Source of the DNA: a virus
Direction: 5' to 3' (one strand)
Length of the DNA stretch: 39,433 bases
IMG/VR virus record: IMGVR_UViG_3300034630_000007
Coordinates: 1-39,433 of that record
Shown: positions 32,796 to 37,672 of the stretch, in pieces
How positions within the stretch are numbered: position 1 is the stretch's first letter
Layout: each line of letters begins with the position of its first letter
The notes under the pieces: model-generated
Databases searched by the model: none
What the model saw: only the letters and a program-made list of their open reading frames with translations
What the model was told of the DNA's origin: nothing
Made by a program: the position numbers and the translations under genes

Positions 32796-34849
32796 CCCGG
32801 CATCCCTCCGATATGCGCTGTGCTCAGCGCCGTGCCGCCGGCCATTTCGGCCAGGTTCTGCTCGCGTTTCAGGTTGAGTTCGGCATCGATCTGGTAGCGT
32901 TTGAGCGCGCCGTTCTGCTGGATCTCCGCAAGTTTCAGCTCGCGCTCCATCTCCAGCTTGCGCCTGGCGTTTTCGCCGTCCATGCGCGCCTTCTCGTTCG
33001 CCAGCTGCATCTGCATCTGCAGTTGCTGCATGCCGAAGTCAGGCTGTTGCTGCGGCTGCGCCGCCTGCATCCGCTTCTGGATGTCCTCGGGCGTCGGCTT
33101 GGTGAAATAGAGGTCGGGCGATTTCAGCCCTGCCGCCTCCACGGTCTTGGCAATGCCGTTGTAGAGGTTGTCGGGCGAAACATAAGGATTGTCCGGCCCG
33201 AGCGTCGTCAGCAGCTTTTCCTGCAATTGCTGGATCATCTGGATCATCAGCATGTCGCGCTCGCGCGTTCCCGCACCAAGCCCGGTGTTGACGGTCGCAT
33301 CCATGCCGGCGTTCCAGTGGCGCGGGTCGAAGGTCACCCATTTGCCGCGCAGGCGCACTGCCCGCGGCCGGTCCTGGTGCTTGATGGTGAGGCCGAGCAG
33401 CCCCTTGAACACGCGTCTCAGCCCTTGCGCGAAGGTGCGCACCATCAGCTCCGTCTGGCCGATGCCCGCCTGTTCGACGAGTGCCGTCGCCTTCGCCGTC
33501 ATGTTCTGCAGCGCATCCGGCGCCATGCCGCTCGACGCATCGGAAATCCCGGTGCGGTCGGTCGCCTCCTGGTCGAGATAGCCGAGCATGGAGAAGGATT
33601 CGCGCGCAACGAAGGGCACCGCCGTGTAGCCGACGGCGCCGCGCACATCGACGCCCTGGCCGACGCGGATGGGCTGGCCGAACTTCGGGTTCAGCACCGA
33701 TTCCGGGTTCTGGATCACCCCTTCCTGCACGATCGGCTGCTGGTTGTTCTGCCAGTAGAGATTGTCGAGCGTCTGGCGAAGCAGCACGGTCTTCACCCGC
33801 TGGATCTCCGCCATGTCGTCGGTGATCGCGTTGCCCTCGCGCTGGTGCGGCCGCCTTTCGGTGATGAGATCGGCAAAGGGCACCTCGTCCCATTCCGCAT
33901 CCTCGAGCAGACTGTCGGCCCCGGTGCCGCCGGCAAAGACCAGGCGGCGCAACTCGGCAATGCCGTCGTCGTCCGCATCCACCTTCACATAGAGCTCGTA
34001 GTAGTCGACCTCCTGCAGCGCTGTCGCCGTCTCCTCGCCATCGCCGAAGATGCCGCGCCTGCGGGCAAATTCCTCGTCCTCGCCATCCGCATTGCCGGCA
34101 ATGGCAAAGCCCTCGACGAGGTCACGGTCATAGCCCATGGCGATCAGGTCCGAGCGGCGCATCCGCCGCTTGATCCCGGCAATCGGGCTATCGTCGATCG
34201 AGATCGCATCGGGGTGAATGAGGAATTCCTCGAGCGGCACGGCCGCAAGCCTTGTTGCCCCGCGTTCCGCCGTGCGGCGGATCTTCACGGTGAAGACCGG
34301 CTGCTCGACAGGCCCGGTCGCAAGCTCGATCCGCTCGACCGATTGCGCCTGTTCCAGAACCTCCACCGTGTCGTCGGCGATCAACTGCACCAGCGCCGCC
34401 TCGTCGAGCCCGCTATGGGTCGAAACCTCGACGCTCTTTTTCTTCTCGTACCACCAGCGGATCACGCCGTTGCCGAGCTTCAGCGCGTCGTGTGCGGCAT
34501 CCTGCACCGCGTCATAGCCGTCACTTTCGGGAAAGACGATGTAGTTGATGTAGTCGGTCGCCTGCTCGGCGCCCGCCTCGTCACCCTGGTTCACCGGCTG
34601 GTATTCCACCACCTTGTCATTGCCGAGCACGGTGCGGATCAGCGACGGCAGCACCTTCTTCACCGCGGCCCGCACATCGCGCGAAACCACCTTGGAGCGG
34701 TTCGCTTCGACAGGCACATCAGCCATCACGCCGTCGTAATATTCCATCGCCCGCACGCGCGTGGCCGAGAGCTGGTCGCGATAGTCCTCGCAATCCCTGA
34801 CGAGCTGGCTCACGAGCTCCGTCAGTTCCGGTTTCGTCATCGCTGCCAT
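32792..34849 (-). CDS. Portal protein (P22-like podoviral type)
   Basis: A 685-residue portal, the expected size for podoviral P22-like portals. The N-terminal region has LVRDCEDYRDQLSATRVRAM and YYDGVMADVPVEANRSKVV, then VKKVLPSLIRTVLGNDKVVE, a wing/stem region, NLYWQNNQQPIVQEGVIQNP (about 363-382), and a long C-terminal Q/M/K/E-rich coiled coil (about 590-665, MQQLQMQMQLANEKARMDGE) that would form a barrel. It makes the dodecameric DNA channel. The start is ATG 34849 or ATG 34840. The stop overlaps the toxin-like gene 1 start. Its last ~328 codons are the unit duplicated at 30473-31170 and 27695-28832. Confidence 0.93.
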   Translation of the reverse strand: MAAMTKPELTELVSQLVRDCEDYRDQLSATRVRAMEYYDGVMADVPVEANRSKVVSRDVRAAVKKVLPSLIRTVLGNDKVVEYQPVNQGDEAGAEQATDYINYIVFPESDGYDAVQDAAHDALKLGNGVIRWWYEKKKSVEVSTHSGLDEAALVQLIADDTVEVLEQAQSVERIELATGPVEQPVFTVKIRRTAERGATRLAAVPLEEFLIHPDAISIDDSPIAGIKRRMRRSDLIAMGYDRDLVEGFAIAGNADGEDEEFARRRGIFGDGEETATALQEVDYYELYVKVDADDDGIAELRRLVFAGGTGADSLLEDAEWDEVPFADLITERRPHQREGNAITDDMAEIQRVKTVLLRQTLDNLYWQNNQQPIVQEGVIQNPESVLNPKFGQPIRVGQGVDVRGAVGYTAVPFVARESFSMLGYLDQEATDRTGISDASSGMAPDALQNMTAKATALVEQAGIGQTELMVRTFAQGLRRVFKGLLGLTIKHQDRPRAVRLRGKWVTFDPRHWNAGMDATVNTGLGAGTRERDMLMIQMIQQLQEKLLTTLGPDNPYVSPDNLYNGIAKTVEAAGLKSPDLYFTKPTPEDIQKRMQAAQPQQQPDFGMQQLQMQMQLANEKARMDGENARRKLEMERELKLAEIQQNGALKRYQIDAELNLKREQNLAEMAGGTALSTAHIGGMPG

Positions 34850-34861
34850 CTGGAGAACCTT
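34833..34861. repeat. 29-bp junction duplication, portal side
   Basis: It matches 36288-36316 at 28 of 29 positions (core TTCGTCATCGCTGCCATCT). This copy spans the portal start codon; the other spans the TerL stop codon. The two bound the toxin-antitoxin insert of about 1.4 kb. Confidence 0.9.
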
Positions 34862-35251
34862 TCAGGGAATGAGCTTTGGTTGAGCAGCCGGTGTTGGCAC
34901 ACGTGGAGTAAACGCCGCGAACGGGTGCCCGCCAGCGCTTTGGCTGGTAGGGGGAGCGGACAGACGCCGCGAAACCATCGTGTAGTTGTCATGAATTGAC
35001 GGCAGCCCGGGACGAACTGCTCTTCGGTCGCCGGCTTAATACCTGTTGCAACCGGATCGGAAGCGGCAAGAGAAGGAATAGGCGGCAACAAGACGCAGCC
35101 GTTACCCGGTGGGTTCAGCCCTTGCGGCAAGACCTAGATGAGCGCCGAGAGGCGCCGACCAGTTTGGAGCACTAGGCTGTGGATCGAAGCCGAGTGCGAT
35201 GTTAGTGCCGTCTGGCACAACGTGACGCGATGGTCGCCCTAATGACAAGGA
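34862..35251. other. Non-coding stretch left of the TA module
   Basis: About 390 bp between the portal leader and the terminator of the toxin-antitoxin operon. I see no convincing gene on either strand. There is one small hairpin (GCGCC-GAGA-GGCGC near 35132-35146). It is part of the inserted segment and may be remnant sequence that came with the TA module. Confidence 0.5.
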
Positions 35252-35271
35252 ACCCGCCTTTGAAGGCGGGT
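35252..35271 (-). terminator. Hairpin terminator after the TA operon
   Basis: ACCCGCCTT-TG-AAGGCGGGT, a 9-bp GC-rich stem, 9 bp past the antitoxin stop. On the minus strand it is followed by TCCTTGT, a weak U-tract. It probably ends the TA transcript and separates it from the portal operon. Confidence 0.65.
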
Positions 35272-35279
35272 CCGATGCA

Positions 35280-35792
35280 TTAGGCATACATACGGCGTTC
35301 CCAACTGTGATTATGTTGTTCAAAAAGGACATCGTCACTTGTTGGAGTGTCCTTTTCGATAAGTTTCCGGATGGTCTCTATCCATCGGGTCAAAATCTCG
35401 GAGCCCTCCGGCTGAGCAACTGGAGACCCAAGGAAAAGCACACGGTAGGCAACGTCGGCCGTGCCTGACAGGTTCGTCTTTCCTTTTTCCCAACGCGCCA
35501 CAGTCTGGTCGTCCACGCGCAGGAGGCTTGCTACCTCCGCCTGCGTCTTGTCCATCTTGTCGCGCAGATACTTGATTTCCTGAGGAGAAAGAATTTTTTT
35601 GTTAGTTACTAGATTTAGTCCAATCGCTTTCCAAAGTTCATCCACGGAGTCAATGCTTACATACTCCTCCCCATCTTCCTCTTCTATGGTATAGCCATTC
35701 ATGAGGTAGATGTTATCAAGACCGCACTCCATGTAGTGATACGGCCGTTGTGCCAAATCGTCGTCACCACAATAGAAGTTTTCTCTGTTCAT
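35280..35792 (-). CDS. XRE-family antitoxin (MqsA-like arrangement)
   Basis: A 170-residue protein starting at ATG 35792, overlapping the toxin stop (ATGA). The N-terminal ~65 residues (HYMECGLDNIYLMNGY, with two Cys) form a toxin-binding-type domain found in DUF4258-partner antitoxins. A helix-turn-helix follows (SPQEIKYLRDKMDKTQAEVA and LLRVDDQTVARWEKGKTN, about residues 75-110). The C-terminal tail is probably helical. The QTVARWEKG recognition helix is typical of the MqsA/XRE group. It should bind and neutralise the toxin and repress the operon through the palindromes at 36147-36186. Toxin-first order matches mqsRA. Confidence 0.85.
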   Translation of the reverse strand: MNRENFYCGDDDLAQRPYHYMECGLDNIYLMNGYTIEEEDGEEYVSIDSVDELWKAIGLNLVTNKKILSPQEIKYLRDKMDKTQAEVASLLRVDDQTVARWEKGKTNLSGTADVAYRVLFLGSPVAQPEGSEILTRWIETIRKLIEKDTPTSDDVLFEQHNHSWERRMYA

Positions 35793-36142
35793 AGGTCTTC
35801 CCATTCCACGGTTTTGATGAAAAGCCGCTGGTGCCTGATCACGATAGTGACGACCCCAACCTCCCTCTTTCCTTTCATCTGTTTAACCATCTTCGCTTTC
35901 CACTCGCCCGGACAGCGCCCGGGCTCGACGTCCCCCTTTAGGTACCCCGTCCTGAGAACGTCGAACATCATGCGGTCTGTGATGTCTCGCCATTCCATTC
36001 GACTCTCAGCGTGGGTCTCATGGGTTATTGCCCGCCACCTGACGTTGCTGGAGTTCATGGCTAGCTCCCTGATCGTTCGCTCAAGATCGGAAGCACGGGG
36101 TTTAAACGGCACAACAACAGGTGTTTGAGTGGGCTTTGTCAT
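35789..36142 (-). CDS. DUF4258 (MqsR-like) toxin
   Basis: A 117-residue protein from ATG 36142 (MTKPTQTPVVVPFKP). The C-terminal ~90 residues fit DUF4258: ITHETHAESRMEWRDITDRM, FDVLRTGYLKGDVE, a basic WKAKMVKQMKGKRE strand, and VVTIVIRHQRLFIKTVEWED. DUF4258 proteins share the fold of MqsR-type ribosome-dependent or free mRNA interferases, and His and Arg residues in the HETHAESRM segment are candidates for the active site. It is translationally coupled to the XRE antitoxin. The base composition is more AT-rich than the flanking phage genes, consistent with separate origin. Confidence 0.8.
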   Translation of the reverse strand: MTKPTQTPVVVPFKPRASDLERTIRELAMNSSNVRWRAITHETHAESRMEWRDITDRMMFDVLRTGYLKGDVEPGRCPGEWKAKMVKQMKGKREVGVVTIVIRHQRLFIKTVEWEDL

Positions 36143-36146
36143 AACG

Positions 36147-36186
36147 CCTATCATAGTGATAGGTTCATGCCTGTCAATATGATAGG
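36147..36186 (-). promoter_or_regulatory. TA promoter with twin operator palindromes
   Basis: On the minus strand TTGACA (36172-36177), a 16-bp spacer and TATGAT (36150-36155) form a near-consensus sigma-70 promoter. Each box lies in a palindrome: CCTATCATAGTGATAGG (36147-36163) and CCTGTCAATATGATAGG (36170-36186), written on the plus strand. Bound antitoxin would cover both boxes. The predicted start of transcription is within 1-2 nt of the toxin ATG, so the mRNA may be leaderless. Confidence 0.8.
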
Positions 36187-36287
36187 AACCCGTTAACGGT
36201 CAATTAATAAATTATTAAAAATTCGTTACCATCGCTCCACTAGCGCCAAAGCTGCCCCTCCACCCTCTGAAGCCAGCGACTTGTTGG

Positions 36288-36316
36288 TTCGTCATCGCTG
36301 CCATCTAGAGAACCTT
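36288..36316. repeat. 29-bp junction duplication, TerL side
   Basis: The partner of 34833-34861. It contains the TerL stop (AAGGTTCTCTAG on the minus strand) directly followed by ATGGCAGCGATGACGAA, which is the portal start. The ancestral TerL stop and portal ATG were therefore adjacent before the TA insertion. Confidence 0.9.
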
Positions 36317-37672
36317 CCGATCGGTAAAGGCCCAGGCGGCGCTGTCCGCCTTCACCCGGGCAAAGCGTTTCATCATCAGCGCGTAGCGAGAGGCCGAAAT
36401 CACGTCGTCGCGTTCCTTGACGATCCGGCCGTCCTTGCGGTGGTAGAGCCTGAATTCCTCGAACCAGTCGCCAGCGGTCGAAAACACCTTGAAGCGCCCG
36501 GTCTGCATCCTTTGCAGCATGTCGGAAATCCCCGCCTCGACACCGTTGCTGCCGTCGTCGAAGGTCGCGCGTTCGGGCAGCATGACGAGCCCCTGCCCGC
36601 GATATTGCGCCGCCAGTTGCTCGCCCGAGCCCTTGTCGTGCTGCAGGCCGTCATGCGGCCAGGCCCATGGCAGCCAGGCCCCCCAGGGTTTGAGGCTCGC
36701 CGCATGGATGATCGGCGTCGCCTCGCGCTCGCGGTAGCAGCGGGTCACGTAAAAGACATCCGCATCCCGGTCCCAGGCGCAGAGCGCTGCGGCAAAGGGG
36801 TGGTCCCAGCCGAAGTCGAGCCCGCCGATCTGCACCCAGTGCCTCGGGATCTCGAACGGCTCGACGCGGATCTGCTCTTCCGTCACCGGGAAGATCCGGC
36901 CGGAACCGAGCGTCGGCACGCCCTTGGTGCGCGCCTCTTTCTCGTGCGCCGGATAGCTGGCGATGATCTTCGCGCGCTCCTCCGGCGAATAATGTTCGGC
37001 ATCGTCGATCGTCATCGTCACCACCGTCCTGTCGTCCGACGGTTCCAGCAGATAGCGGCTGACGACCGAGCTCATGCCTTTGAGCGGCGTAAAGGTCACG
37101 GCAATCGAGCCACCCGTCGCATTGGTGCGGGTGATGCCCTCGAAATAGACGTCCTCCGGCGGCTCCTCGTCGAACCAGACATAGTCCACCGTGTTGGCCT
37201 GCCACTTGGCACGCCCCTGCTCATAGGCTTTGAGAAGCAGCGTCGAGGTGCCGCCCGAGACATGGCGTACTGTCACGCTGTCGAGCGCGCCCGACGCGCT
37301 TGAACGTCGGGTCCAGCCGGCAAGGGCCGCCTTCGGCAGATAGCCGGTGCCCCACTCCTCCTCGCTCATCGGCGGGCCGACGAGCAGCCGCTGCACGCCA
37401 TCGCGTGTCAGCTCGTGCGATTCCGAGCCGCCGATCATCGTGATCGGCCGGTCGAACCGTCGGCCCGCCCACCAAGAGGGATAGTCGCCTGTCAGGTGCA
37501 TCGCCGCTTCCGCAGCCCCGGCAAGCGTCTTGCCGAGCTGGTTGCCGGCCATGAACAGCCGTTCGCGGACTGTGGCGCCCGCCGCATGGAATGCCGTCTG
37601 CTTCGCATAGGGCTGGTAGTAGCGCAGCCTATTGGTTTTCTGCCTGCGCCCGATCTCCATCGCCAGTTCCAT
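36305..37672 (-). CDS. Terminase large subunit
   Basis: A 455-residue packaging ATPase-nuclease. ATG 37672 has GGGAG upstream and is preferred; a longer frame from 37744 exists. ATPase motifs: Walker A-like AGNQLGKT (about residues 42-49) and Walker B VDYVWFDEEPP. Coupling or motif III follows at IAVTFTPLKGM. Nuclease landmarks are GGLDFGWDHPFAAALCAWD and the C-terminal DDVISASRYALMM. It resembles P22 gp2/terminase_6-type proteins. It overlaps TerS by ~44 bp, and the portal originally followed directly, as the junction repeat shows. Confidence 0.92.
   Translation of the reverse strand: MELAMEIGRRQKTNRLRYYQPYAKQTAFHAAGATVRERLFMAGNQLGKTLAGAAEAAMHLTGDYPSWWAGRRFDRPITMIGGSESHELTRDGVQRLLVGPPMSEEEWGTGYLPKAALAGWTRRSSASGALDSVTVRHVSGGTSTLLLKAYEQGRAKWQANTVDYVWFDEEPPEDVYFEGITRTNATGGSIAVTFTPLKGMSSVVSRYLLEPSDDRTVVTMTIDDAEHYSPEERAKIIASYPAHEKEARTKGVPTLGSGRIFPVTEEQIRVEPFEIPRHWVQIGGLDFGWDHPFAAALCAWDRDADVFYVTRCYREREATPIIHAASLKPWGAWLPWAWPHDGLQHDKGSGEQLAAQYRGQGLVMLPERATFDDGSNGVEAGISDMLQRMQTGRFKVFSTAGDWFEEFRLYHRKDGRIVKERDDVISASRYALMMKRFARVKADSAAWAFTDRKVL

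Follow-up and report, generated by a model that had tools for sequence, protein, structure and literature searches.

Operator palindromes over both promoter boxes and a predicted leaderless toxin start in a phage-carried, toxin-first candidate toxin-antitoxin pair

The window analysed here is the whole 39,433-nucleotide stretch of the virus record IMGVR_UViG_3300034630_000007. Between its terminase and portal genes, and co-directional with the terminase gene, lies a pair of genes (Table 1) in which a candidate toxin of the DUF4258 family precedes a candidate MqsA-like antitoxin. The arrangement found, a promoter with an operator palindrome serving two small neighbouring genes, is that of type II toxin-antitoxin (TA) systems, of which this pair is a candidate member.

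Table 1. Features of the candidate TA locus and its surroundings, in window coordinates
Feature	Position	Strand	Remarks
Direct repeat, copy 1	34833..34861		portal start side; 28/29 identical to copy 2
Terminator-like hairpin 3' of antitoxin gene	35250..35273	-	weak: 1 in region against 1.9 expected in shuffles
Candidate antitoxin gene, 170 aa	35280..35792	-	MqsA-like C-terminal HTH; ATGA overlap with toxin stop
Candidate toxin gene, 117 aa	35789..36142	-	DUF4258 family; start codon 36142-36140
GGGAAG purine run	35797..35802	-	possible ribosome-binding site; 4 nt before antitoxin ATG
Predicted transcription start	36143	-	about +/-2 nt; inferred from -10 position
O2, downstream operator palindrome CCTATCACTATGATAGG, 17 bp	36147..36163	-	arms pair 7/7; holds -10 box
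-10 box TATGAT	36150..36155	-	consensus 5/6; spacer 16 nt
O1, upstream operator palindrome CCTATCATATTGACAGG, 17 bp	36170..36186	-	arms pair 6/7; holds -35 box
-35 box TTGACA	36172..36177	-	consensus 6/6
Weaker upstream promoter-like TTGACC-16-CATATT	36176..36203	-	9/12 consensus; its -10 inside O1
Direct repeat, copy 2	36288..36316		terminase stop side; flanks TA insert

The two palindromes upstream of the toxin gene are near-identical, and their starts lie 23 bp apart. The sequence TTGACA-16-TATGAT, which matches the promoter consensus at 11 of 12 positions, came top of a promoter scan of positions 34800-36800. The sole arm mismatch of O1 creates TTGACA, so that the base breaking the symmetry of the operator is the base making the -35 box. 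Single palindromes with at least 6/7 arm pairs are frequent by chance (87 in the window against a mean of 74 in shuffles) and were dropped as evidence by themselves. By contrast, the window has a single case of two near-identical palindromes lying within 60 bp of each other, and 200 dinucleotide-preserving shuffles gave none. The DNA thus agrees with the sequence-only reading, in which this promoter overlaps a pair of near-identical 17-bp palindromes 23 bp from each other. The toxin ATG (36142-36140) is placed 7 nt past the -10 box. A -10 hexamer spans -12 to -7 by the usual rule, which puts +1 at 36143 and, with the ATG at 36142, predicts a leader of about 1 nt; the earlier proposal that the start site falls within 1-2 nt of the toxin ATG agrees with this promoter geometry. 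The 20 nt 5' of this ATG pair with the anti-Shine-Dalgarno (anti-SD) sequence at only -2.4 kcal/mol. A second in-frame ATG is present at 36154, within the -10 box. The weaker TTGACC-16-CATATT sequence resembles the single-operator promoter type of relatives. A scheme that joined this upstream promoter to a mini-ORF of five codons (MNLSL), the stop of which overlaps the in-frame ATG upstream, was dropped, the mini-ORF start being missing or shifted in those two-operator relatives that were inspected.

The window toxin scored 15.1 bits against DUF4258 (PF14076), for which the cut-off is 25, while 22 of 23 aligned toxin relatives matched this family (E up to 0.01). A five-residue insert before a conserved histidine, present in the window toxin and its nearest relatives and missing from most relatives, may be the cause of the weak DUF4258 score of the product of 35789-36142. 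In Pfam, MqsR (PF15723) did not match the window toxin with E allowed up to 1, nor any of the 23 aligned family members with E up to 0.01. The PDB sequence search by toxin profile returned no credible match, PADLOC assigned the toxin to no defence family, and tblastn against phage and plasmid records found no match for the window toxin or for two relatives. The toxin model (mean pLDDT 82.7) suggests an MqsR/BrnT/RelE-like fold, which may be that of the RelE/ParE (BECR) toxins: its structural alignments gave Z values of 8.1 for MqsR, 7.7 for 7vd7, 6.6 for BrnT and 5.9 for RelE, close to what the tool regards as common, with toxins occupying the top six rows. Foldseek with the toxin model returned nothing below E 0.001.

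The antitoxin profile TIGR03830 is matched by 24/24 antitoxins at E up to 0.001; the window antitoxin reaches 42 bits, under the cut-off of 61.8, and is also below the cut-off of PF15731. The antitoxin profile search recovered the MqsA structures 3fmy and 3gn5, the Foldseek matches were antitoxins and repressors of HTH type with no E below 0.001, and PADLOC gave weak matches only (E 1e-4 and above).

Protein-based retrieval yielded six viral loci and 35 loci from genomes; most of the latter are alphaproteobacterial, and four bear the title Gammaproteobacteria or Acidiferrobacter. The operator lies upstream in 40 of the 42 protein-retrieved loci, window included. In genome samples searched by profile, 12/385, 16/297, 5/298 and 5/199 genomes had a family member. 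DNA-pattern scans of viral contigs contributed 33 and 3 stretches, adding a distant clade of 100-aa toxins that likewise has a TTGACT-16-CATATT-ATG layout. Removal of entries with identical 50-nt surroundings reduced 108 entries to 79 non-redundant rows, among which L014/L015 and L130/L131 are kept as near copies and L126 has an internal stop. On the toxin tree, a quick midpoint-rooted one on which the fork dividing the clades has a support of 92 and is not starred, clade C comprises 18 rows and the other two clades, which are those nearest the window, 61.

The operator is present in 57 of these 61 rows and absent from four. Of the 61, 46 have their start codon 1-5 nt beyond the operator. The protein search supplied 36 of these near-operator rows and the DNA pattern the other ten, in which an operator is guaranteed by the pattern itself. 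Of the 55 scored rows, 41 have a -35 box that matches at least five of six positions, compared with 4.9% for shuffled upstream sequence; among the 46 near-operator rows, 36 have such a box and 44 a predicted leader of 5 nt or less. The start is 7-84 nt from the operator in 11 of the 57 operator-bearing rows, among them L011, which has lost the -10 from O2. In clade C, none of 17 rows starts 1-5 nt past the operator, most starting 6-60 nt away, and for seven of the 18 a start is listed whose SD pairs at -6 kcal/mol or more strongly. The difference between clades has p = 9e-10 in a Fisher test that ignores relatedness, or 4e-7 if L105 and L119 are counted as near, starts in clade C having been assigned loosely and these two rows having a possible start that overlaps the operator. 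The DUF4258-like toxin family thus appears to hold both start states. The sister toxin clade (part of L103-L121 and L130-L133) has a drifted operator with the core TATCANNNTGATA and leadered starts, several of them with strong SD sites.

The promoters are of two types. Single-operator loci have the -35 upstream of the operator and a -10 (CATATT, CATAAT or the like) close to the operator centre, whereas the 12 two-operator loci have operators spaced 23-26 bp apart. TTGACA lies inside the upstream operator in 12/12 two-operator loci against 1/45 other operators (Fisher 1.8e-11, relatedness again ignored), and TATGAT lies in the last operator in 8/12 against 6/45. Operator number switched between types at least six times on the tree.

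Judged by sequence comparison, then, the operator, the -35, the -10 and the start spacing are conserved, and the operator is a dedicated one in host genomes. Of 11 bacterial genomes, nine contain the operator core CTATCANNNTGATAG exactly once, at the TA locus, as do both of two viral records; the other two genomes, those of L034 and L036, gave no match and have operators that depart from the pattern. When the operator was combined with the ATG into one DNA pattern, it matched one of 385 alphaproteobacterial genomes, with none for the reversed control, and this single match is a family member with a distant toxin and an MqsA-like antitoxin. The operator was rejected as a family-exclusive marker: 13 of 33 viral stretches with an exact operator contain a family member and the other 20 exact matches are without a family toxin. 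The comparison with diverged relatives supports the earlier proposal that each promoter box sits inside an operator of an autoregulated TA promoter. The recurrence of operator, -35 and 1-5 nt spacing in these relatives likewise backs the proposed leaderless or nearly leaderless toxin message, which as a prediction from promoter geometry and conservation is well supported. The sharing of this layout by relatives in many alphaproteobacteria suggests that it matters for toxin control.

The start of the antitoxin is less simple than the sequence-only reading had it. That reading made the antitoxin dependent on translational coupling; the ATGA overlap is present, yet the GGGAAG run could act as a ribosome-binding site of its own, and initiation by coupling, by this site or by both is possible. 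In the clade of 100-aa toxins the genes do not overlap and the antitoxin starts 7-29 nt past the toxin stop, so coupling by overlap is not universal; these starts are often preceded by a purine-rich stretch. Antitoxin SD energy (-5.8) equals that of the antitoxins' own shuffles (-5.9), and selection for an antitoxin SD is for this reason not claimed. The SD may be a by-product of the VEWED motif, within the conserved KTVEWED, whose conservation is partly by construction since the motif served as a retrieval pattern. Selection for a strong antitoxin SD was rejected on codon usage, the invariant VEWED codons being GAA in 26 cases and GAG, which would give the stronger site, in eight.

These features are likely to represent the control region of a phage-carried, toxin-first type II TA system, with an operator-covered promoter and a leaderless or nearly leaderless toxin mRNA. 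The antitoxin, alone or with the toxin, probably binds the palindromes through its HTH, and since one operator covers the -35 and the other the -10, it would probably shut off RNA polymerase directly. Upon release of the repressor, transcription would begin at the edge of the downstream operator, 0 to about 3 nt from the toxin ATG, so that translation of the toxin would start at or close to the 5' end of a message with little or no leader; the antitoxin would be started internally at the ATGA overlap behind the purine run. Binding by the window antitoxin, the actual 5' end, leaderless translation and toxicity are what we infer from this arrangement. With the toxin gene first, a TA operon must ensure by other means that antitoxin stays ahead of toxin, and leaderless initiation would keep toxin low relative to antitoxin and tied to its own promoter. 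As had been proposed, and as the general behaviour of leaderless mRNAs would suggest, toxin output may be sensitive to the state of translation initiation.

The main toxin mRNA could instead be leadered, arising by read-through from the terminase or from the TTGACC-16-CATATT promoter, with the AGG of the operator serving as a weak Shine-Dalgarno site. That promoter-like sequence is indeed present, and the pair is co-directional with the terminase gene. Anti-SD pairing is also slightly stronger in toxin upstream regions (-3.1) than in shuffles of the same regions (-1.7), probably on account of the operator AGG, so that a transcript begun further upstream would not entirely lack an SD-like element. 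This AGG is, however, only about 4 nt from the ATG, the upstream promoter is not conserved in most two-operator relatives while the TTGACA of O1 is kept in all 12, and the direct repeat and cassette layout described below suggest a self-contained unit. We consider a leadered main message improbable. A promoter that is correctly placed but serves a different start codon, such as the in-frame GTG at 36112 or the ATG at 36154, has even less in its favour: although the window, like 33 of the other 45 near-operator rows, has at least one further in-frame start codon, the ATG at the operator edge is the start in 45 of the 46 rows and the sole possible start in 12, no alternative lies downstream in 22, and the ATG at 36154 is upstream of the predicted transcription start. 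This reading is thought very unlikely.

It is just as hard to credit that the pair is a repressor with an unrelated small partner under ordinary autoregulation, rather than a toxin and its antitoxin. The sub-threshold DUF4258 score of the window toxin and the Foldseek result would fit such a pair, but nearly all aligned relatives match DUF4258, a family that the available text of one study counts among RelE-superfamily toxins (PMC11980606), and the best structural alignments are to toxins. The preferred reading thus remains that of an autoregulated TA pair with a toxin start at or close to the 5' end of its message.

Among known systems, the pair resembles MqsRA of E. coli in being toxin-first, in the MqsR-like predicted fold of its toxin and in the MqsA-like C-terminal HTH of its antitoxin. 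The MqsA antitoxin has an N-terminal CxxC zinc site, whereas no CxxC motif was found in the first 70 residues of any of 38 antitoxins of the window family, which also lacks an MqsR family match. The MqsRA operator, AACCT-N-AGGTT, differs from the operator of the window family. The pair is thus related to MqsRA, having an MqsA-type HTH, and does not have the CxxC motif and MqsR match that define it. A second toxin-first pair, sll1651-sll1652 of Synechocystis, has a DUF497 (BrnT) toxin. The toxin family and antitoxin type of the window are the same as those of the DUF4258-MqsA pairs in the available text of PMC11980606, which lists DUF4258 as a toxin family of the RelE superfamily, with DUF4258-MqsA fusions and activity unknown, and in which nothing was found on operators or leaderless starts of these pairs. 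According to the accessible part of a study of Mycobacterium tuberculosis (PMC3898074), 32 of 37 TA gene pairs in that organism are leaderless, as are about a quarter of all its mRNAs, unlike the family-specific operator-promoter-AUG unit found here in alphaproteobacteria. In the portion seen of PMC4963859, the Synechocystis pair, whose toxin is of the RelE superfamily, is marked leader-less in a table; it is one tabled locus of another family, and the DUF4258 locus that the same paper names is not the one so marked. Autoregulated HTH promoters with a leaderless first gene are likewise described for lambda cI/paaR2 and for the C genes of restriction-modification systems, where, in the text available, the leaderless gene is the regulator and not, as predicted here, the toxin (PMC8630535, PMC4824078). 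Leaderless mRNAs are, from excerpts of two sources, generally translated more poorly in E. coli, and differently under stress (PMC3898074, PMC8485053). A search of open-licence PMC found no paper on leaderless DUF4258 toxins. Leaderless TA transcripts were already known, and what looks new is a conserved operator-promoter-AUG module in DUF4258 toxins.

The surroundings of the pair bear on how such a module might be used. The 29-nt direct repeat corresponds to the terminase-stop/portal-start junction, and its copies lie 1455 bp apart around the TA insert. Among 80 terminase relatives (L134-L213), 70 have both ends of this interval; the gap is 15 nt or less in 43 and 39 nt in one, and 26 carry cargo of 89-1880 nt between terminase and portal. 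In L137 the junction is uninterrupted, as expected of an empty site. Given the flanking repeat, the empty L137 site and the cargo in relatives, the site resembles an insertion hot spot, with the TA pair as its cassette cargo. This makes attractive the more tentative idea, which we regard as possible yet doubtful, that operator, promoter and AUG form a fused module in which toxin translation is conditional on the 5' end made by its own repressed promoter, so that read-through transcripts would yield antitoxin and little toxin. If true, leaderless initiation would insulate a mobile toxin-first cassette from whatever operon it lands in. DNA control, by operators over both boxes, and translation control, by the predicted lack of a toxin leader, appear joined across diverged toxins. 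The insulator state would differ in the sister clade, where starts lie further downstream and several are behind Shine-Dalgarno sites, making that clade a natural comparison for whether leaderless initiation sets the TA ratio and shields mobile cassettes from read-through. Within the window insert, about 390 bp from the hairpin to the portal start (34862-35249) are without an obvious gene. The operator is absent from all ten cargo loci examined at the terminase/portal junction, several of which (such as L143, L144, L155 and L181) have junction-like sequence at both ends.
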